33,866 nucleotides of DNA from Bryobacteraceae bacterium (GTDB taxonomy: Bacteria > Acidobacteriota > Terriglobia > Bryobacterales > Bryobacteraceae), in contig JASHOO010000246.1 in NCBI GenBank assembly GCA_030041035.1, positions 1 through 33,866 of the forward strand, read 5' to 3'. Numbering within the stretch: position 1 is the first letter of the stretch; every line of letters starts with the position of its first letter. The notes below the pieces were generated by a model. The model had not been told where the DNA came from. It worked only from the letters and a program-made list of their open reading frames with translations, and did not search any database. The translations under genes were made by a program, and so were the position numbers. Positions 3,961 through 27,036 of the stretch are shown in pieces.

Positions 3961-6495
3961 TCATTGAACGCTCAGCGCCGCGACCGGAGGCTGGCGCAGT
4001 AGCGACGTGCCGGTGTGCCGCATTTTTTGCTGCTGCTTGCTCTTGTACATGCGGCGGTCAGCGGTGGCCAGCAATTCCTCGGCGTTGTCGCCATCCATCG
4101 GGAAAAACGCTTCGCCGACACTCATGGAAAGCAGACGTTTGCCCTGCACGGTCTCGCCGGCTTCGGCGGCGATCCGGACCAAGTCACTAATGCGCTCGTC
4201 AACCGATTCGGGAGTGATGTGCGGCAACAACAGAACAAACTCGTCACCGCCCATGCGGGCCACATAGTCGTATTCGCGGCAATTCTCTTTCAACCCATTC
4301 GCCACGCTACTCAGGACTTTGTTGCCGGCCAAGTGGCCGAAAGAGTCGTTGACCTGCTTGAAACCGTCCAAATCGCAGACCAACACTGCCAGGGGAATGT
4401 TCATGCGGCGGCAGCGTGCCAGTTCACTATCCAGGCGCAGGAACAGAGAGCGGGCATTGGGCAGGTTGGTGAGGTAGTCAATGGTAGCCGAGTTTTCAAC
4501 CAGACGATACTTCAACGCGTTCTCAACCGCCAGCGACACCTTGGAGCTGATAGCGAGCAGGATGCGCAGATTATCGCGGGTGAACGCGTCCTTCTCGGCG
4601 CGGTAAAGCGCGAGCACTCCCACCGCGCCATTCAGACCCTCGAGCGGAACAGCGAGCGCCGAGCGCAGCGTACTAAACTTGCCGGGGTCCCCCATGTAGC
4701 CGGCCTCGACCGAGGGATTGCCGTTCAGGATCGGCTTACGATTTTGCGCCACCCATCCTGAGAGACCTTCGCCGACAGGAATTTCCAACGAAGAAAACAG
4801 ACGAAAATTCTCGCCGTTCACGTACTCGGGCACCAGTTTCTGATCGCGCACCACGTAAACCGCGATCGAGTCATACGGCACCAAGCGCTTCAGCCGGACC
4901 GAGACGACGGAAAGCGTCTCGTTCAAACTGAGCGAATTGCCGAGGTCTTGCGTGAGCTCGAACAGCATCTGGACTTCCTGACGTGCCGCAGCAATGGACG
5001 AGAGTGGGTCGAAGGCGTCGTTGTGCCCGTTGAGCTGCGGATTCGGCTGCTCGAAACCGGCAGCCGGCGCCACGCCTTTCTCGATCTTCAGGTTCGTTGA
5101 AAGGCGCTTCTTTTCCCACGTCTGCGCCTGCGCCATCTGCTCCAGCTCGACATAGCGTCGCGCCAGAACCTCCACTACCTTGGGGTCGAAACTCTTTCCG
5201 GAATCCGCGGCGATGATCTCCATGGCGCGATCCAACGGCATCGCGCGCCGGTACTGGCGATTAGAGGCGAGTGCGTCCAGACAATCGACAACCGCCAAAA
5301 TGCGGGCGCCCATGGGAATTTCCTCGCCTTTCAACCCGAGCGGATAACCGCTGCCATCCCACTTTTCGTGGTGTGCACGCACGATGGGAACCACTGGGTA
5401 AGGGAACTGAACGCGTTCCAAAATCTCAGCACCGACCACGGGATGAATCTTAATCTTTTCGAATTCCTCAGGCGTAAGCTTGCCGGGCTTGGAGATGATC
5501 TGCTCCGGGACGGCCAACTTGCCGATGTCGTGCAAAAGAGCCGCCGCGCGCAGCGCCTGCATATCGCCAGCGGAAAGGCCCAGATCTTTCGCAATCTCCA
5601 TCGCGTAAATGCGGACACGACGGAGGTGGTCATGGGTGGTGTGGTCCTTGGCTTCGATCGCGAGGGCCAATGCTTCGATGGTGCGGAGATGCAAAGCAGC
5701 CATCTCTTCAACATGCACCTTCTCATCTTCCAGGCGGCCTAGATAAGTACGATAGGAACGGTAGATGAAATAAATAACGGGAATCAACACAAGCGAAGCA
5801 TGCCAGTGAGTCTGACGGCTCAAAACGCTGAGGATCCAAGCTATGGATGCACCACCCAGGTAGTAAGGAAAGCACCAAAAATAACAGTCATACCAAATCC
5901 GTGTAAGAGATTTATGTTCGGTCATCCCGATCGCCGCGGCAACCGGGATGGTATTCATCAGGAAGAACATGCAAGCGGTAACGCCAAGGCGCAAAGGGTT
6001 CGCGTCATTTGGCAAGCCCGCTATGTTGGCATGATACACGTAGTAAGAAACCGCCACGGAGACGGCCATCGCGCCGGTATTGAAGATTACTTGGAAGGGC
6101 TTAGGTTTAGTCTTCGATTTCCAAAGGCATTGAATCAGGCTGCCCGTGCATCCGATGATCAGGGTGGACGGGAAATCTAACTCAGCGATGCCGATGAGAA
6201 TGAACAAGAAGTTCACCGACATGGTACCGGTGATTGTAGGGAGGGTTACTTTGAGGGCCGACGCGATGGCGGAAACAAGCAGAAAACAGAGAGCGCGGGT
6301 CAGATTCTGAGGACTCCAATGGCTCAGCGCAAACAACGTAACAAGGGCCCCGACTGTGGACACGGCGCCAACATAGATCTTGGCATTGACCGGAATGGCT
6401 GAATATTTCGGTTCCACCGGAGCTTGCCCAAGTGCAACCGAGATACCAACAGCAGATGAATATGCGCCACCGGTTGTAAGCCTGTCTGCCCACAA
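3961..6495 (-). CDS. Membrane-anchored HD-GYP / GAF / GGDEF c-di-GMP turnover protein
   Basis: This 844-residue protein carries opposing c-di-GMP enzymes. Residues 40-250 hold about seven hydrophobic segments of a membrane sensor. The HD-GYP phosphodiesterase domain (about 265-450) has HDIGK (322-326), HH (375-376) and GSGYP (381-385), so its metal site looks intact. A GAF domain spans about 505-660. The GGDEF diguanylate cyclase domain (about 670-825) has GGDEF at 749-753 and an inhibitory I-site RxxD (740-743) at the standard five-residue distance, so it should be feedback-inhibited. Which activity dominates cannot be told. The start is uncertain: the longest frame begins at a TTG (6495) with no good ribosome site, and GTG at 6417 is a possible alternative; both retain all domains. 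A perfect GTGACA-N3-TGTCAC palindrome lies 75 bases upstream. Confidence 0.93.
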   Translation of the reverse strand: MWADRLTTGGAYSSAVGISVALGQAPVEPKYSAIPVNAKIYVGAVSTVGALVTLFALSHWSPQNLTRALCFLLVSAIASALKVTLPTITGTMSVNFLFILIGIAELDFPSTLIIGCTGSLIQCLWKSKTKPKPFQVIFNTGAMAVSVAVSYYVYHANIAGLPNDANPLRLGVTACMFFLMNTIPVAAAIGMTEHKSLTRIWYDCYFWCFPYYLGGASIAWILSVLSRQTHWHASLVLIPVIYFIYRSYRTYLGRLEDEKVHVEEMAALHLRTIEALALAIEAKDHTTHDHLRRVRIYAMEIAKDLGLSAGDMQALRAAALLHDIGKLAVPEQIISKPGKLTPEEFEKIKIHPVVGAEILERVQFPYPVVPIVRAHHEKWDGSGYPLGLKGEEIPMGARILAVVDCLDALASNRQYRRAMPLDRAMEIIAADSGKSFDPKVVEVLARRYVELEQMAQAQTWEKKRLSTNLKIEKGVAPAAGFEQPNPQLNGHNDAFDPLSSIAAARQEVQMLFELTQDLGNSLSLNETLSVVSVRLKRLVPYDSIAVYVVRDQKLVPEYVNGENFRLFSSLEIPVGEGLSGWVAQNRKPILNGNPSVEAGYMGDPGKFSTLRSALAVPLEGLNGAVGVLALYRAEKDAFTRDNLRILLAISSKVSLAVENALKYRLVENSATIDYLTNLPNARSLFLRLDSELARCRRMNIPLAVLVCDLDGFKQVNDSFGHLAGNKVLSSVANGLKENCREYDYVARMGGDEFVLLLPHITPESVDERISDLVRIAAEAGETVQGKRLLSMSVGEAFFPMDGDNAEELLATADRRMYKSKQQQKMRHTGTSLLRQPPVAALSVQ

Positions 6496-6569
6496 TAGTT
6501 GATGTTCTTGCCGATTAATCCGGTGATCACCTGACAGCTAGAAGTGCGACTTGGTGGCACATATAGGAG

Positions 6570-6584
6570 GTGACAGACTGTCAC
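6570..6584. promoter_or_regulatory. Perfect inverted repeat GTGACA-N3-TGTCAC, candidate activator/operator site
   Basis: The 15-base site GTGACAGACTGTCAC is a perfect palindrome with a three-base centre; one more G/C pair on each side also matches (6569-6585). It lies 75 bases upstream of the start of the HD-GYP/GGDEF gene. Both six-base arms and the spacer length match the site at 9025-9039 exactly, and the GACA-N3-TGTC core recurs at 8983 and 9107. This indicates one DNA-binding protein for all four sites. That the protein is the neighbouring sigma-54 activator is an inference. Confidence 0.6.
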
Positions 6585-6792
6585 CCCTTGAAGGGCACAA
6601 CCCCACCGCAAGATGCGGGCGAACACGAACAAATATGGGATCCTCACTCCACGGGTTAACGGTCCTGGTTATCATTCGAAATGGATAAGCTACGTGTCAG
6701 TCGGAAGTTACTAATTTGCCCGTATAACAGTTGAAGGTTAGCAAAAACAAAGAACAAGTCGTAATAACATTGGATAAGTTAGTCCGAGAAAG

Positions 6793-6810
6793 TGTTCTGA
6801 ATTCAGAACA
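6793..6810. promoter_or_regulatory. 18-base perfect palindrome TGTTC-N8-GAACA, candidate operator 1
   Basis: TGTTCTGAATTCAGAACA is a perfect 18-base palindrome 117 bases upstream of the sigma-54 activator start. A second site with the same outer arms lies at 6881-6898, with centres 88 bases apart. The pair upstream of a regulator gene suggests control by a dimeric DNA-binding protein, possibly autoregulation. The arms point the opposite way to a Gram-positive-type LexA box (GAAC-N4-GTTC), so I do not call it a LexA site. Confidence 0.55.
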
Positions 6811-6880: not shown

Positions 6881-6898
6881 TGTTCCAGACTCGGAACA
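6881..6898. promoter_or_regulatory. Inverted repeat TGTTCC-N6-GGAACA, candidate operator 2
   Basis: The arms TGTTCC and GGAACA are separated by six bases, giving the same TGTTC-N8-GAACA geometry as the site at 6793. It ends 28 bases before the activator start codon, so a bound protein could also block transcription or the ribosome site at about 6913-6919. Confidence 0.55.
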
Positions 6899-6926: not shown

Positions 6927-7967
<1,041 letters not shown>

Positions 7968-7971
7968 CCAG

Positions 7972-8877
7972 TCATCGCGTACGCACTAGCGCCAGAGCGT
8001 GACCGCTATCCGAATCTGTGTTTGGTTCACTCTTATCGGGTTGTGGTGCGTGCAGTAACTTACTCAAATTCCCATGTGACGGAAGTTCGGATTCCAGATA
8101 CTCCACGCCCATGGCCGAAATCACGTAGTCAGAGTGATCCCCGGGCCTGATATACAGCTTCTCGCGCAGAAACCAGAGTGCGAATTCCAAGTGCTCTCTA
8201 GGAAAAGACATCACCGTTTCTAGCTCTAGGACCGAGATTCCGGGAACCTCTGGGTTTGCACGCCGGCGGTTATAGAGCAACGACAGGATACCCAGGCGCC
8301 GATTGACTTCCCCATCCAGGCCCTCCACGAATTCTTTTAGGCCGAATACCGGCAGCGGCTGGGCTCGGCGGTCACGATGGCGCTCGTCGTAGAATGCTCT
8401 TTTGGCGGGGTCTGACAGTGCAGCGTAAGCCTTCGTAAGCAGGAGAAAGCGATCGTTGTTGCCTGTTTCCTTGTTGTCCGGGTGATAACGCGCTGCCATG
8501 ATCCGGAACACTCGATGAATGGTATCGGGGTCAGCGTTTGGGCTGATTTGCAGAAGTTCGTAATAGTCAACGAACGTTTGAGTCTCGTCGGTGTCCGTGG
8601 CTTTGCCGTCGGGAATGAACTCAAGGCCCAGAACGCACTTAACTCCACGGCGTCCGCAGTGCCGCACGGAGGTGGACCCGGTCAGGCCATAGCGTTCCGC
8701 TCGCACGTAAACTTGGGTGCCCAATTCAATCGGCTCGCTGGACTCCACACGAATCCCCGAGTTGGAGAGATCGATGGCACGGACCGTCAGGGTATGGCTC
8801 GTTTGACGCGTGTCGTGCCACGCGATTTCGAGGGCACAGTCGAACAGTTGCCGTTGTTTGCGTCGCTTGTCGCTCAT
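7972..8877 (-). CDS. PilZ - J-domain fusion protein with C-terminal winged-helix-like region
   Basis: This 301-residue cytoplasmic protein joins a c-di-GMP receptor to a DnaJ-type co-chaperone domain. The N-terminal PilZ domain (about residues 4-92) keeps both ligand motifs: RRKQR (R5-x3-R9) and DLSNSG (D36-x-S38-x2-G41). The J-domain (about 104-166) has the HPD tripeptide at 132-134 that stimulates Hsp70 ATPase. The rest (about 178-268) looks helical and ends in a pattern resembling a winged helix (FALWFLREKLYIRPGDHSDYVISAMGVEYLE). There is no Gly/Phe or zinc region, so it is not a general DnaJ. The open frame extends 59 codons upstream, but I chose ATG 8877-8875 because the domain begins there and the extension would swallow the promoter. 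A -24/-12 promoter candidate lies just upstream (8903-8917). Confidence 0.9.
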   Translation of the reverse strand: MSDKRRKQRQLFDCALEIAWHDTRQTSHTLTVRAIDLSNSGIRVESSEPIELGTQVYVRAERYGLTGSTSVRHCGRRGVKCVLGLEFIPDGKATDTDETQTFVDYYELLQISPNADPDTIHRVFRIMAARYHPDNKETGNNDRFLLLTKAYAALSDPAKRAFYDERHRDRRAQPLPVFGLKEFVEGLDGEVNRRLGILSLLYNRRRANPEVPGISVLELETVMSFPREHLEFALWFLREKLYIRPGDHSDYVISAMGVEYLESELPSHGNLSKLLHAPQPDKSEPNTDSDSGHALALVRTR

Positions 8878-8902
8878 GATGGATAACTCGAAAGCAAGAA
8901 AA

Positions 8903-8917
8903 GCAAGTGCCTTTCCA
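8903..8917 (-). promoter_or_regulatory. Candidate sigma-54 (-24/-12) promoter for the PilZ/J-domain gene
   Basis: Read on the minus strand the element is TGGAAAGGCACTTGCTT, with GG and GC separated by exactly ten bases and a full TTGC box (consensus TGGCACG-N4-TTGCW). Transcription would start near 8891, about 14 bases before the chosen ATG, which leaves a very short leader. The palindrome at 8983-8993 lies about 70 bases upstream. Confidence 0.55.
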
Positions 8918-8982
8918 GTTATCCATGGCCGCAAACCAATTGACTGCTGAAGTATTCGAGTGTGTGGGTTAACTTTAGATAG

Positions 8983-8993
8983 GACAAACTGTC
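8983..8993. promoter_or_regulatory. GACA-AAC-TGTC palindrome, candidate enhancer site
   Basis: The core GACA-N3-TGTC is exact; the outer bases differ from the perfect sites. It is one of three such cores within 135 bases. The eight fixed bases make a cluster of three unlikely by chance. Confidence 0.5.
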
Positions 8994-9024
8994 GCTTGAG
9001 GTTACTCTTTGCTGGGTTGCGAGC

Positions 9025-9039
9025 GTGACAAAGTGTCAC
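9025..9039. promoter_or_regulatory. Perfect inverted repeat GTGACA-N3-TGTCAC, candidate enhancer site
   Basis: GTGACAAAGTGTCAC has the same arms and spacing as the site at 6570-6584. It lies about 110 bases from the minus-strand -24/-12 candidate and about 140 bases from the plus-strand one, within the usual range for sigma-54 enhancer sites. Confidence 0.6.
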
Positions 9040-9104
9040 TGGAAGTTGCGTCACACTAAGTGGTTACCAAACACGCAGTTTGCACAAACACCGTGACATC
9101 CACT

Positions 9105-9119
9105 GCGACACAGTGTCCA
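9105..9119. promoter_or_regulatory. Degenerate copy GCGACA-N3-TGTCCA, candidate enhancer site
   Basis: The core GACA-CAG-TGTC is exact and nine of twelve arm bases match the perfect sites. Its centre is 80 bases from the 9025 site and about 69 bases from the plus-strand -24 box. Confidence 0.5.
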
Positions 9120-9179
9120 GCATGTCGAGTCATTGATTGCGATCCGTCGGCTTTTCCTGTATTTACCCGATGCTAGCTT

Positions 9180-9196
9180 TGGAACTGCCCGTGCTT
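9180..9196 (+). promoter_or_regulatory. Candidate sigma-54 (-24/-12) promoter for the PilZ - CpaE gene set
   Basis: TGGAACTGCCCGTGCTT has GG and GC separated by exactly ten bases and TGCTT at the -12 side; the -24 side matches TGGCAC at five of six positions. Transcription would start near 9206. Confidence 0.5.
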
Positions 9197-9271
9197 ATCA
9201 CCAGGTGAATATCTGGGCAGCACACTCGATCAAAGAGCGGCGGCCAAAAGAAAGGTGGCATAGGGAGGATC

Positions 9272-9709
9272 ATGTACGCATCAACGAGTAAGATTGCGAG
9301 CCGGTATCGCGAGTTGTTGCAGGGGCTGGAGCAGCGTTCTCATGAGCGTGTGAATCTGGCGCTGGAATGCCGCGTCACAGCGGGCGGCAGGAGGTCAGGA
9401 GGGACGATGAAGCTGGTGGAGAACATCAGTCGCACGGGCATTCTGATCCGTTGGCTGCCCTCAGATGGTCCACAGGACGTTCCACGCCCTGGCGATACAC
9501 TGAACATCGAAATGGCGCTCCCCGCCAATCACAACTTTGATCGAAAGTGCTGGTTCTGCGGAGGCACCGTGGTGCGGGTTTCCAAAGCAGAGGATAATTC
9601 GCCACTCGTAGCGGTCCGCATCAACACGACTAAGTTCCGTAAGTATACTCCTCCCGCGACTCAAAAGGCCGTCACGCATGTTCCCCAACTGGTGACGGTT
9701 ACCCACTGA
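9272..9709 (+). CDS. PilZ-domain protein (c-di-GMP receptor)
   Basis: This 145-residue single-domain protein is predicted to bind c-di-GMP. It has an N-terminal helical tail (about residues 1-20), then RSHER (R22-x3-R26) and ENISRTG (N51-x-S53-x2-G56), the two motifs that clamp the ligand, inside a beta-barrel of about 90 residues. The C-terminal 30 residues are basic and Thr/Pro-rich. ATG 9272 has a strong GGGAGGA ribosome site. It lies 64 bases before the CpaE-like gene on the same strand and is likely co-transcribed with it, so it may tie c-di-GMP to pilus or secretion placement. The partner it acts on is not known. Confidence 0.92.
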   Translation: MYASTSKIASRYRELLQGLEQRSHERVNLALECRVTAGGRRSGGTMKLVENISRTGILIRWLPSDGPQDVPRPGDTLNIEMALPANHNFDRKCWFCGGTVVRVSKAEDNSPLVAVRINTTKFRKYTPPATQKAVTHVPQLVTVTH

Positions 9710-9773: not shown

Positions 9774-10973
9774 ATGAGACTCCTGACTGTAGGACTGATC
9801 ATCAAGCGCGGCGAATTGCTGACGGAAATCGAACCGTGCTGTCAGGAGCTCGCTAGACATGTCGTGGCGGAGAAACAAAACGGCGAAGACTGGCCCGGCA
9901 TGCTGGACTGGCTCACCCAAACGCGGCCTCACCTACTTCTAGTAGATGTGGAGCACCTTCAGAACGCGATGGAAGAGCGCGTCCGGCAGATCAAAGCGGT
10001 TGTGCCGGAATCGATGATTATCGCCGTACATCACTCGGCCGATTCGAAGATGATCCTCGCGGGATTGCGAGCAGGCTTGGATGAGTACTTCTATCCTCCG
10101 CTCGTGAGCAGCCTACGCCGCGTGCTGGAGCAGAAGATCGATCAGCACACGAAGAACCAGTTTCTGACAGATTCTGATCGTAGGACGATCGCCTTCCTAT
10201 CTGCAAAGGGCGGTTGCGGGGGCACTACGGTGGCGTGCCATGTGGCCGTGGAGTTGGGTAAGAGGATGCATGATTCCGGAACGCACCATGTACTGCTGGC
10301 CGACTTGGACCTGACGGGCGGCAACGTTCGCTTTCTGATGCGCTCGAAGACGGCTGGGTCGATCTTGGACGCCATAGAAACTACACAGGGGCTGGACGTG
10401 GCTGCTTGGAATCGTATAGTCTCGAACGGCCATCCCGGGCTAGAGGTGATCTCTACCCCGGCTGAGGCGTTGCCGCGAATGCTGGAGCAGCGCGAGCTGG
10501 AGCGCGTACTGAACTTCGCCCGCAGCCGGTATCAGTGGACAGTTCTGGACTTGGGTTGCTGTCTGACACCCTACAATCTCAGCATCCTGGAAGGTTTGAA
10601 CGAGCTGTACCTAGTAGCATCGCCCGATGTGCTGGCGCTCTTTCAAGTGAAGCAGATATTTCATGAGTTACAAGAGCACAACGTTCCCTTGGACCGCGTG
10701 CGGCTGATCCTGAACCGCAATGTGGATTACGAGGATAAGTTGGTTGCAAGAGAAGCACAGAAAATGTTGGGCATAACAGCCTACTTTTCGCTGCCCAATG
10801 ACTACTCAGGCTTGACGGAAGCTTACGCCAACGGCAACCTACTACCGAAACACAGTCCGCTAGGTCACCAGATCTCGGCGCTGGCTTCCAAGATCAGTGG
10901 GATTGAGAGCTCTACTCAGGACCAACAACGCCAGGCACCCTGGTACCGGAAGTTTCGGGTGGCACGAGGATGA
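9774..10973 (+). CDS. CpaE/TadZ-like pilus-assembly ATPase (receiver-like domain + MinD/ParA-type ATPase)
   Basis: This 399-residue protein resembles CpaE/TadZ, which place Tad-type pilus machinery at the cell pole. Residues 1-125 form a receiver-like fold without an obvious phosphorylation pocket (LLLVDVEH carries the Asp in the usual strand). The ATPase domain (about 135-375) starts with the deviant Walker A AKGGCGGTT (144-152), has DLDLTGG for the switch region and TVLDLG for Walker B. The variant KGGCGGTT lacks the second lysine that follows the glycines in many MinD proteins. No tad/cpa genes for prepilin, secretin or the secretion ATPase occur here, so the machine it serves is encoded elsewhere or it has been recruited to another role. 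A weak AGGGGA ribosome site precedes ATG 9774. Confidence 0.88.
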   Translation: MRLLTVGLIIKRGELLTEIEPCCQELARHVVAEKQNGEDWPGMLDWLTQTRPHLLLVDVEHLQNAMEERVRQIKAVVPESMIIAVHHSADSKMILAGLRAGLDEYFYPPLVSSLRRVLEQKIDQHTKNQFLTDSDRRTIAFLSAKGGCGGTTVACHVAVELGKRMHDSGTHHVLLADLDLTGGNVRFLMRSKTAGSILDAIETTQGLDVAAWNRIVSNGHPGLEVISTPAEALPRMLEQRELERVLNFARSRYQWTVLDLGCCLTPYNLSILEGLNELYLVASPDVLALFQVKQIFHELQEHNVPLDRVRLILNRNVDYEDKLVAREAQKMLGITAYFSLPNDYSGLTEAYANGNLLPKHSPLGHQISALASKISGIESSTQDQQRQAPWYRKFRVARG

Positions 10974-11213: not shown

Positions 11214-11912
11214 ATGATTCGAGTCCTTGTTCTTACCGACCAACCCATCCTTGCCCGAGGATTTCAGGAAATCTTATCTGCCGGCGGTATTGAGGTGGCT
11301 TCCGCCAGCGATCCCGCCGGTGACGCGTTCCACCCTGCCAATCAGGAACTGGTATTGCTCGACCTGACGGGTGAATTCACCTTTGAAACCCTTGCCGAGA
11401 CACACCGGCGCATGCCAGGATGCAATCTGATCATTCGCGTGGGTCCCATGTCGCGCGAACTGATTTTCCAGGCTCTCGAATATGGTGTACGGGGGATTCT
11501 GCCGGTTCGGCTTTCTCCCGACATGCTCATCCAATCGCTGCACAGGATCGCCAAAGGTGAGTTAGTCATCGAGGTGACCGACTCGGGCTTCGATCCGGCC
11601 GGCGAGAGACGCATCAGCTTCAGTGAGCGCGAAAAGCAAGTGGTCGAGCTGCTGGCCCAGGGCCTCAAGAACAAGGAAATCGCCGCTGCCATGAACCTGG
11701 CGGAAGGAACCGTCAAGGTGTATCTCTCTCGGCTCTTTAAGAAGACCAAGGTTCGCGACCGGTTTGAATTGATGATCTACCGCGCCCAGGACCGCAAGCT
11801 ACTCAGCAATGCGGATGCCGCGAACCATTCCGCAGCCGACTCGCAGGCACCGCAGTTATCCCAGTTCCTTCCCACTCACGGCGTACGCACAGAAGGCGTT
11901 CTCGTTTCCTAG
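11214..11912 (+). CDS. LuxR/NarL-type regulator with atypical receiver domain
   Basis: This 232-residue protein has an N-terminal response-regulator-like domain (about residues 1-120) and a LuxR helix-turn-helix (about 134-190: FSEREKQVVELLAQGLKNKEIAAAMNLAEGTVKVYLSRL). The receiver keeps an Asp at the phosphorylation position (LLDL, D50) and one acidic residue near the N-terminus (D9). It lacks the switch Thr/Ser (IIRVG where a T/S is expected) and the conserved Lys (GILPVRLSP where GxLLKxxxP is usual). It may therefore not be phosphorylated by a normal kinase, and no histidine kinase gene is nearby. A 40-residue Ser/Gln-rich tail follows the DNA-binding domain. AAAGG 13 bases before ATG 11214 is a passable ribosome site. 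Confidence 0.88.
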   Translation: MIRVLVLTDQPILARGFQEILSAGGIEVASASDPAGDAFHPANQELVLLDLTGEFTFETLAETHRRMPGCNLIIRVGPMSRELIFQALEYGVRGILPVRLSPDMLIQSLHRIAKGELVIEVTDSGFDPAGERRISFSEREKQVVELLAQGLKNKEIAAAMNLAEGTVKVYLSRLFKKTKVRDRFELMIYRAQDRKLLSNADAANHSAADSQAPQLSQFLPTHGVRTEGVLVS

Positions 11913-13693: not shown

Positions 13694-14606
13694 CGCGGAG
13701 TCTATCCGCCGCGCCGCAGCCCTGATCCGGGAAGGAAAGCTCGTCGCGTTTCCCACCGAAACGGTTTATGGGCTCGGCGCGAACGCGCTCGATGCCCAGG
13801 CCGTGGAGAAGATCTTCCGCGTAAAAGGCCGGCCCTCCACCAGCCCGCTCATTGTCCATGTCGCTTCGCATCAGGCGGCCCGCGGGCTGGCGGCGGTATG
13901 GCCCGAATCAGCCTTGAAGCTCTCCTACAGATTCTGGCCGGGTCCACTGACGTTAGTATTGCCGAAACGCGATTGTATTCCGGCCGTCGTTACCGCAGGG
14001 TTGCCCACGGTGGGGCTGCGCGTGCCGGTGAATCCAGTGGCGCTGGCACTGCTGGCTGAAGCCGGCGTGCCTATAGCCGCACCGAGTGCCAATCGATTCT
14101 CCGAGCTTTCACCCACCACTGCGGAGCACGTTCGTCATTCTCTTGGAGCCGAAATCGATCTCATTCTTGATGGCGGTCCCACCGAGGTGGGGATCGAGTC
14201 GACAGTGGTGTCCCTGGCGGGGCCCGTGCCGTTACTGCTTCGTCCCGGCATGATCTCCGAGGCGCAGATCGCAGACGTTATCGGCGAGATTCGAGTCGCT
14301 CAGGCGCCGGCCCAGGGTCCCCATTCGTCGCCGGGCATGCATGCCAAGCATTACAGTCCTCGCACGCCGTTGTTCCTGACGCTTCCGCCGTCAGGGCGCG
14401 GCGCTTGCCTCTGGCTCAGTCATGAGGCTCCGGCAGCGAAGAGCATCCGCATGCCAGCGGACCCCGCCCACTACGCCGCGCTGCTTTATCAAATTCTACA
14501 CACCTTGGACGGCGAAGGTTTTGACTGGATCGCTGTGGAACTACCGCCGGACTCCGCCGAATGGACCGGCGTTAGAGACCGGTTGCGGCGCGCCGCGGCT
14601 ATCTGA
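13677..14606 (+). CDS. L-threonylcarbamoyladenylate synthase, long Sua5 form
   Basis: This 309-residue enzyme makes threonylcarbamoyl-AMP from threonine, bicarbonate and ATP, the first step in tRNA t6A37 modification. The YrdC domain (about residues 8-195) has FPTETVYGLG, the KGRPSTSPL nucleotide motif and SANRFSELSPT. The hinge SPGMHAKHYSP and a smaller Sua5 C-terminal domain (about 215-309) mark the long form. The start is ATG 13677 (MISPSN) or ATG 13668 (MRKMISP); both overlap the end of prfB, so the two are coupled. Earlier in-frame starts lie deep in prfB and are unlikely. It overlaps the convergent prepilin gene by 8 bases at the 3' end. Confidence 0.93.
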   Translation: MISPSNAESIRRAAALIREGKLVAFPTETVYGLGANALDAQAVEKIFRVKGRPSTSPLIVHVASHQAARGLAAVWPESALKLSYRFWPGPLTLVLPKRDCIPAVVTAGLPTVGLRVPVNPVALALLAEAGVPIAAPSANRFSELSPTTAEHVRHSLGAEIDLILDGGPTEVGIESTVVSLAGPVPLLLRPGMISEAQIADVIGEIRVAQAPAQGPHSSPGMHAKHYSPRTPLFLTLPPSGRGACLWLSHEAPAAKSIRMPADPAHYAALLYQILHTLDGEGFDWIAVELPPDSAEWTGVRDRLRRAAAI

Positions 14607-15063
14607 CAAGAGGGCTGGTAGCGGTCGCAGGTTCCTGTCCGAAGTTGTTCCGCACGGTCATACTCTGATCGGAATAGAAGGTCCGGCTACCCGACGTTCC
14701 AAACGCGATCGGATTTGCGTTGATGATGTAACCGCCCGGTGTCGCAGTCAAAACGTACTTATACCCCTGCTTTTCACCGCTGGCCAGATCTTCTTGAATC
14801 AGATCGGCGGCTGCGGGTCCCGCTGCGCCGCTCGTGGGCGGGCCGAGCGCTACCAGCGTTTCTGCGTACTTGCCGTATGTCGAGTAATATTGTGTCTGAG
14901 CCGTGTGAATGGTCTTGATCGCTTGAATGGCGGCCATCTCCTGCGCGTACATGCGCGACTTCGACAGCTTGGGCATGGCCACTGCCAGAATGATCAGGAT
15001 GATGGCGATAACAATGAGCAGCTCAATAAGCGAAAAGCCAAACTCGCGGCGGGTTTTCTTCAC
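14599..15063 (-). CDS. Type IV prepilin-like protein (orphan)
   Basis: This 154-residue protein has a class III signal: MKKTRREFG then the cleavage point before F10, with the mature start FSLIELLIVIAIILIILAV carrying the Glu at mature position 5. Prepilin peptidase would cleave and methylate it. The exposed part shows a helical AQTQYYSTYGKYAETLVALG stretch typical of acidobacterial pilins/pseudopilins, and no disulfide pair. It lies alone, 40 bases after the end of kdsA on the same strand and overlapping sua5 on the other. A -24/-12 promoter candidate lies within the end of kdsA (15112-15126). It may be a major pilin (PilA-like) or a minor one; no other pil genes are visible. Confidence 0.92.
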   Translation of the reverse strand: MKKTRREFGFSLIELLIVIAIILIILAVAMPKLSKSRMYAQEMAAIQAIKTIHTAQTQYYSTYGKYAETLVALGPPTSGAAGPAAADLIQEDLASGEKQGYKYVLTATPGGYIINANPIAFGTSGSRTFYSDQSMTVRNNFGQEPATATSPLVR

Positions 15064-26511: not shown

Positions 26512-26655
26512 GCCGCGCGCCTCGATCAAAATCGAGTCCTTGTCACGGTTTTGACGATAGGCAAAGGCGTGACAGGGCGAAAGCGGCGTAAGTTGTTGAT
26601 TTTACGGGTTCGCTGCCGTGGCCTGCCGGTTGCTATCTGGACCGCCTGAGGAATC

Positions 26656-27036
26656 ATGGCTCTACAGTCGTTTATCTCTCGCGTGGCCAGTTACAGCTTC
26701 GACGGGCCCGAAATCGCCCGCAATCGCGCCCAAGCCGCCGCCTTCGGTCAGATCGACGGCCGCCGCTACCTGCGCTCTCCGATCAATGCCCGCTTCGAGT
26801 TGGGCTGGCAGGATCAGCGCGGCTGGCAAAAGCAAACGCAATCGCGCGCCGTTAACATGAGCAGCGCGGGTGCCGGGGTAATGTCGCCGGACCCCATTGC
26901 GGTCGGCACCACCGTATATGTCAATTCGAAAGAGCTGCAACTGATGGGAGCGGCGACAGTACGGCACTGCACCGTAAAAAGGGGCAGGTTTCTGCTCGGA
27001 CTCGAATTCCGCGGCTCGCTGGTGCGGACGTTCTAG
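26656..27036 (+). CDS. PilZ-domain protein
   Basis: This 126-residue protein has a PilZ domain (about residues 34-122) with intact c-di-GMP motifs: R36-x3-R40 (RRYLR) and NMSSAG (N67-x-S69-x2-G72). The N-terminal 30 residues (MALQSFISRVASYSF...) are amphipathic. GAGGA before ATG 26656 is a good ribosome site. It stands apart from the 7-10 kb PilZ cluster, in a 144-base gap after the hydrolase gene. Its stop overlaps the stop of the convergent thioredoxin gene: both share CTAG at 27033-27036. Confidence 0.9.
   Translation: MALQSFISRVASYSFDGPEIARNRAQAAAFGQIDGRRYLRSPINARFELGWQDQRGWQKQTQSRAVNMSSAGAGVMSPDPIAVGTTVYVNSKELQLMGAATVRHCTVKRGRFLLGLEFRGSLVRTF

Follow-up and report, generated by a model that had tools for sequence, protein, structure and literature searches.

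Two genes transcribed away from each other, a PilZ-DnaJ gene and the first gene of a PilZ-CpaE set, are separated by 394 bp (positions 8878-9271) in this contig of an uncultured soil Bryobacteraceae bacterium, and the question is whether this region switches on both genes together and, if so, through which regulator. The whole stretch of 33,866 nucleotides was analysed and is called the window here. Considering the sequence comparisons described below, we expect with a probability of about 0.8 that the 394-bp region serves two divergent sigma-54 promoters as a common enhancer, and that the protein encoded at 6927 activates these promoters together with that of an HD-GYP/GGDEF gene and some distant genes. 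The genes beside the region are as follows.

7972-8877, minus strand: PilZ-DnaJ protein gene, putative target (Pfam PilZ and DnaJ)
9272-9709, plus strand: PilZ-domain gene, putative target and first of the rightward set (Pfam PilZ; 79-86% identical in sister genomes)
9774-10973, plus strand: gene for a CpaE/TadZ-like ParA/MinD-type ATPase, second of the rightward set (best model CpaE_hom, 2e-14, below its cut-off; synteny)
11214-11912, plus strand: NarL/LuxR-type regulator gene, possibly co-transcribed (Pfam GerE; synteny)

Near this gene set there is also an ORF resembling a type IV pilin or pseudopilin (14599-15063, minus strand, MKKTRREFGFSLIELLIVIAIILIILAVAMPKL).

Both strands of the whole window were scanned with a sigma-54 matrix that is our own approximation of the known consensus and not a published table. 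Four matches stood out, which ranked in the order 8902-8917 (minus strand), 26619-26634 (plus strand), 6433-6448 (minus strand) and 9180-9195 (plus strand). Three of these four lie at the expected positions beside GACA-N3-TGTC sites, and all three are conserved.

8902-8917, minus strand: predicted sigma-54 (-24/-12) promoter of the PilZ-DnaJ gene, TGGAAAGGCACTTGCT; window rank 1, predicted start about 8891
9180-9195, plus strand: predicted sigma-54 (-24/-12) promoter of the PilZ gene at 9272, TGGAACTGCCCGTGCT; window rank 4, predicted start about 9206
6433-6448, minus strand: predicted sigma-54 (-24/-12) promoter of the HD-GYP/GGDEF gene, TGGTATCTCGGTTGCA; window rank 3
3961-6420, minus strand: gene for a membrane HD-GYP, GAF and GGDEF protein (c-di-GMP turnover), putative target divergent from the activator gene (Pfam HD_5, GAF_2, GGDEF and weak MASE9)

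The initial annotation had described one -24/-12 element facing each way, both with GG-N10-GC, and our scan recovered the two of them as the first- and fourth-ranked matches with this signature present in each; the third-ranked element at 6433-6448 had been overlooked. Conservation was judged in a genus sample of three assemblies, all of them fragmented: the own genome of the contig (G000), MAG SRVP_11 (Terriglobia; G002) and MAG gp3 AA109 (Acidobacteria; G001), both assemblies with public records being metagenome-assembled. All three elements have GG-N10-GC within a sequence like TGGCAC-N5-TTGC and keep it in the sister genomes. The leftward promoter is altered in sequence there but retains GG-N10-GC (scores of 10.4 in G002 and 11.1 in G001). 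The rightward promoter, which retains TAGCTTTGGAACTGC followed by TGCTTAT in the sister genomes, is identical in G002, comes closer to the consensus in G001 (score 15.0) and lies inside a conserved block. In the sister genomes, the elements orthologous to 6433-6448 reach scores of 12.8 and 14.9. A gene for sigma-54 itself, rpoN, is present in the genome, as a profile search gave a PF00309 match above cut-off on contig C226. The HD-GYP/GGDEF gene probably starts at GTG 6420 and not at TTG 6495, given the orthologue starts and the location of the TTG upstream of the gene's own predicted sigma-54 promoter. A start at 6420 would leave its transcript nearly leaderless.

The second-ranked match (26619-26634, TGGCCTGCCGGTTGCT) lies directly upstream of a further PilZ-domain gene at 26656-27033, and half-sites TTGTCAC and GTGACAG are found about 50-80 bp upstream. 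We did not retain this gene as a conserved member, since the parts of the sister contigs that were examined contained no orthologue.

The motif GACANNNTGTC occurs exactly at four positions in the window (8983, 9027, 9107 and 6572), all of them intergenic. The corresponding candidate sites, which have no strand, are listed below.

8983-8993: enhancer site 1, GACAAACTGTC; about -97 from the minus-strand promoter; kept in G002 and degenerate in G001
9025-9039: enhancer site 2, GTGACAAAGTGTCAC; common to both promoters; kept in G001 and G002
9107-9117: enhancer site 3, GACACAGTGTC; about -94 from the plus-strand promoter; kept in G001 and G002
6569-6585 (core 6572): enhancer site 4, GGTGACAGACTGTCACC; in the gap separating the activator gene from the HD-GYP/GGDEF gene; retained in both G001 and G002

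The three exact cores reported between the divergent promoters were thus found where the initial annotation had placed them, and the fourth site at 6572 had been missed. The site at 9027, which had been called a perfect 15-base palindrome, has arms that are perfect over six bases (GTGACA AAG TGTCAC), but it is not strictly a palindrome because its central AAG is asymmetric. A block TGCGAC-N6-TGGCACA at 6542-6562 adjoins the 6572 palindrome and is largely kept in all three genus members.

Four matches in the window compare with 0.46 expected, and none of 100 shuffles reached four. At the genome's own rate of 62 matches in 6.85 Mb, finding three sites in 394 bp has a Poisson P of about 8e-9. The proposal had depended on a motif that is not as common as chance genome-wide and that is conserved upstream of orthologues. 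In scans done by pattern, the core occurs 62 times in the genome versus 35 times for the reversed control. Both sister genomes retain the promoters and the sites with nearly the same spacing. When up to two mismatches were allowed, the own genome showed no excess (96 versus 94 for the control), and weak matches therefore carry no meaning.

Distances were calculated by assuming a start 12 bases past the -12 C. The sites are centred at about -94, -174 and -218 from the plus-strand promoter and at about -97, -141 and -221 from the minus-strand promoter, and the corresponding values in G002 are about -94, -176 and -219 and about -96, -139 and -221. Only two sites are exact in G001; relative to the plus-strand promoter they lie at about -97 and -188, and relative to the minus-strand promoter at about -156 and -247. 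Several conserved palindromes, two in the case of G001, are hence located 70-250 bp from both starts, as expected of a divergent shared enhancer, and distances of 94-221 bp to the predicted starts fit upstream enhancers rather than operators. In all three genus members the HD-GYP promoter has a site at -156/-157 from its predicted start (about 6422). Both sister genomes retain the order of the genes (HD-GYP, activator, PilZ-DnaJ, PilZ, CpaE-like and LuxR-like), with proteins 60-87% identical; the intergenic DNA has mostly diverged, and in the alignment the palindromes persist and the -24/-12 blocks are among its best conserved parts. Three copies at the PilZ promoters are found in only two genomes, the own genome and G002. 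Outside the genus, PilZ-DnaJ homologues have no GACA-N3-TGTC nearby, and we rejected them as carriers of the divergent enhancer.

The candidate activator is encoded beside these genes.

6927-7967, plus strand: predicted sensor-less bacterial enhancer-binding protein (bEBP) of 346 aa, with an AAA+ sigma-54 activation domain, a GAFSGA loop and a Fis-type HTH

Its residues 41-205 match PF00158 (Sigma54_activat, 7e-65), its Fis-type HTH matches PF02954 (HTH_8, E 2.7e-12), and the search for a sensor domain gave no Pfam match in the N-terminal part. GAFSGA, a variant of GAFTGA, is present in all aligned orthologues. The change of T to S is accepted as functional in B. subtilis BkdR, according to a passage of PMC3162934, and one D. 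vulgaris EBP with GAFSGA has been described (PMC4641369). About 15 other genera have orthologues, which are some 54-68% identical and mostly divergent from an HD-GYP/GGDEF orthologue. Autoregulation of the activator gene through sigma-54 is not supported, as none of the three genomes has a promoter match scoring above 5.6 there. With no sensor domain of its own, the activator is probably regulated through the amount in which it is expressed or through a protein partner. Upstream of the gene there are two GTTC-N8-GAAC palindromes (6794-6809 and 6882-6897) that are conserved in the genus. The 6794 palindrome with up to two mismatches has four matches genome-wide versus none for the control, at three loci (C138, C196 and C203), and such sites are paired at the other two loci as well. 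This pair is possibly bound by a second regulator and would be a candidate entry point for control of the activator.

The distribution of the motif across genera connects it with this protein. The P values given here are from Fisher tests, which ignore kinship among orthologues and so overstate independence. Among the loci fetched from other genera, GACA-N3-TGTC lies directly upstream of 8 of 15 activator orthologues, compared with 0 of 12 loci that hold a paralogous activator (P 0.003). Of the HD-GYP orthologues, 12 of 17 have it upstream where the genome holds the activator and 0 of 7 where it does not, and 0 of 6 HD-GYP paralogues have it (P 0.002 and 7e-5). It also lies upstream of 11 of 15 activators with the recognition helix SRRTL versus 0 of 8 with other helices (P 0.001). 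The orthologues of four genomes (G030, G007, G035 and G006) have the same helix and no exact site upstream. In most other genera with the activator the counterpart of enhancer site 4 is also found as GACA-N3-TGTC, occupying the intergenic region that adjoins the 6927 orthologue. Since the motif tracks both the presence of the activator and one recognition-helix sequence, the 6927 protein is the best candidate for the activator, and the earlier proposal of a single EBP for both genes, most simply this one, gains support from the cross-genus comparison. By the same comparison, the activator/HD-GYP pair with GACA-N3-TGTC between them is the ancestral module, and the PilZ copies are specific to the genus. 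In the own genus the helix TLIRKL goes with GTGACA half-sites, and in most other genera TLSRKL goes with half-sites near GGGACA; a link between helix and half-site, which rests on one change, is only suggestive.

Whether another EBP could bind the sites, with the 6927 protein as a mere neighbour or target, has to be weighed against this distribution. The genome encodes 35 EBP-like candidates, including a close sensor-less paralogue of the 6927 protein on contig C638 (58% identical), and either this paralogue or an NtrC-type response regulator might be the binding protein. In addition, genome G003, which is without a close 6927 orthologue, has an excess of GGGACA-N3-TGTCCC (21 versus 10), so that related palindromes may be used by other proteins. 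However, the C638 paralogue has the helix SLRTL, and no site is found upstream of its gene or of its own HD-GYP partner. The motif is also missing upstream of HD-GYP orthologues where the 6927 orthologue is lacking, and in most other genera it is located in the intergenic DNA adjoining that orthologue. On these grounds we consider control by another EBP unlikely. As a separate observation, contigs C60, C89, C185 and C245 of G003 carry paired GGGACA-N3-TGTCCC-like sites 63-66 bp apart, which are either a repeat element or sites of another regulator.

Still less credit goes to the view that a regulator unconnected with sigma-54, such as the NarL/LuxR-type protein of 11214 or a repressor, uses GACA-N3-TGTC as its operator, and that the -24/-12 matches are coincidental. 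The LuxR-type gene does belong to the same conserved gene set, and several exact sites (on C73, C97 and C671 of the own genome) have no clear sigma-54 promoter, but this view has to accommodate three conserved promoters among the four best matches of the window, distances that suit enhancers, and a motif that follows an EBP across genera. It is similarly improbable that the activator binds all sites and controls the HD-GYP gene only, so that the PilZ-side copies serve as a sink or in feedback and the PilZ promoters are activated otherwise. The ancestral state of the HD-GYP/activator module and the genus-specific PilZ copies would agree with this, but a site lies at -94 to -97 from the PilZ promoter in all three genomes and at -96/-97 from the PilZ-DnaJ promoter in two of them (the nearest in G001 being at about -156).

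Under the preferred reading, in which the 6927 protein acts on the shared enhancer, further targets may exist outside the cluster. With at most one mismatch, GTGACA-N3-TGTCAC occurs 19 times in G001 and 14 times in G002, versus 4 and 1 for the reversed control, and 9 of 29 near-exact sites outside the cluster face a sigma-54-like promoter, compared with 8% of random positions (P 3e-4). Downstream of such sites there are TadE-like genes (C479 of the own genome; C22 of G002), an EAL-HDOD gene (C5 of G002, and C422 of the own genome behind a pilin-like gene), a gene for a MASE9-type membrane protein (C494 of G001), and small Flp-like pilin genes with a GXXXXEY signature (C422 and C429 of the own genome; C21 and C27 of G002), whose assignment to Flp has little profile support (the best E value, 0.015, falls below the cut-off). 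This Flp-like family of 61 aa has about ten genes per genome, mostly 70-92% identical, and the three that were scanned fell below the Pfam cut-off. It is located in G000 on C631, C225, C422, C429, C414 and C746, similarly in G001 and G002, and has apparently expanded in the genus. Membership of all Flp-like paralogues was rejected, as only a subset carries sites and most are without them; generic Flp pilins (PF04964) were rejected as well, since the best 30 loci have no site and only three have a sigma-54-like match upstream. The regulon scope in the initial annotation is supported for both PilZ-side genes and was incomplete in omitting the HD-GYP/GGDEF gene and the distant pilin-type genes. 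We read the locus as the putative hub of a regulon that would coordinate c-di-GMP turnover, PilZ effectors and pilin genes.

While promoter and site identity, conservation, spacing and activator co-occurrence were obtained by computation, we infer from them binding, ring assembly, looping, the direction of effect and a pilus or attachment role. The 6927 protein would bind GACA-N3-TGTC as a Fis-type dimer, and its AAA+ ring would assemble on the clustered sites. Looping of the DNA would then bring the activator to the RpoN polymerase complex and open it at either divergent promoter. In this way three promoters would be opened, those of PilZ-DnaJ (about 8891), PilZ-CpaE (about 9206) and, through the 6572 site, HD-GYP/GGDEF (about 6422), and at distant loci of the genome the same switch would act on some of the genes for Flp-like pilins, TadE-like proteins and EAL-HDOD proteins. 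Judging the outcome from the gene list, the activator would co-induce c-di-GMP enzymes, c-di-GMP receptors (PilZ) and parts of a surface pilus. A bolder extension, which we hold to be possible and rather doubtful, is that this sensor-less, clade-wide EBP governs surface attachment as a master switch in these Acidobacteria: it would fire c-di-GMP enzymes and PilZ effectors along with type IVb-like pilins, c-di-GMP would feed back on it, and its operator would have changed from GGGACA to GTGACA as the helix changed from TLSRKL to TLIRKL in the genus.

In terms of known systems, the NorR gene is adjacent to norVW, and NorR sites are odd palindromes with N3 centres. The closest precedent for the mechanism is the E. 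coli norR-norVW system, in which a sigma-54 promoter is preceded by three enhancer sites. However, NorR has a GAF sensor and other site sequences, whereas the 6927 activator is sensor-less, and here two divergent promoters share the sites and neither drives the activator gene. In a passage of PMC2941729, the three NorR sites are reported to be essential and to form a scaffold for oligomer assembly. Three sites may not be essential here, because G001 has only two exact ones. NtrC recognises TGCACCA-N3-TGGTGCA and resembles the present case in its Fis-type HTH, an odd palindrome with a CA-N3-TG core, distal enhancers and a GAFTGA-type AAA+ domain, but the 6927 product lacks a receiver domain, its half-site differs, and its putative targets concern c-di-GMP and pilins instead of nitrogen. 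The sensor-less bEBPs that PMC3162934 classes as type 1c, PspF among them, likewise have fewer than 400 aa and consist of AAA+ plus HTH only, whereas the 6927 product has a GAFSGA loop and another operator and targets. FleQ and VpsR are AAA+ activators too, with links to c-di-GMP and to attachment to surfaces, and both match the 6927 product by overall homology; here, in contrast, the c-di-GMP proteins are putative targets.

Sigma-54 has been presented as a controller of the bacterial exterior, a theme in passages of PMC3162934 that the putative targets would fit. Acidobacter, Solibacter and pilus are absent from the text of that article, as far as it was available, and its passages make no mention of the activator, operator or regulon. 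Our literature search found related work and no direct report of this system, and none joining Acidobacteria, sigma 54 and PilZ.

In summary, the locus appears to be a new instance of the established bEBP/sigma-54 regulon type, with a coherent putative regulon. This regulator family occurs in many genera of soil Acidobacteria that are poorly cultured, and the locus supplies it with a putative operator, an activator and a list of targets that can be tested. Additionally, the differences in helix and operator among the orthologues provide a small natural experiment in bEBP-DNA specificity. Our study suggests how soil Acidobacteria may couple c-di-GMP signalling to pilin expression.
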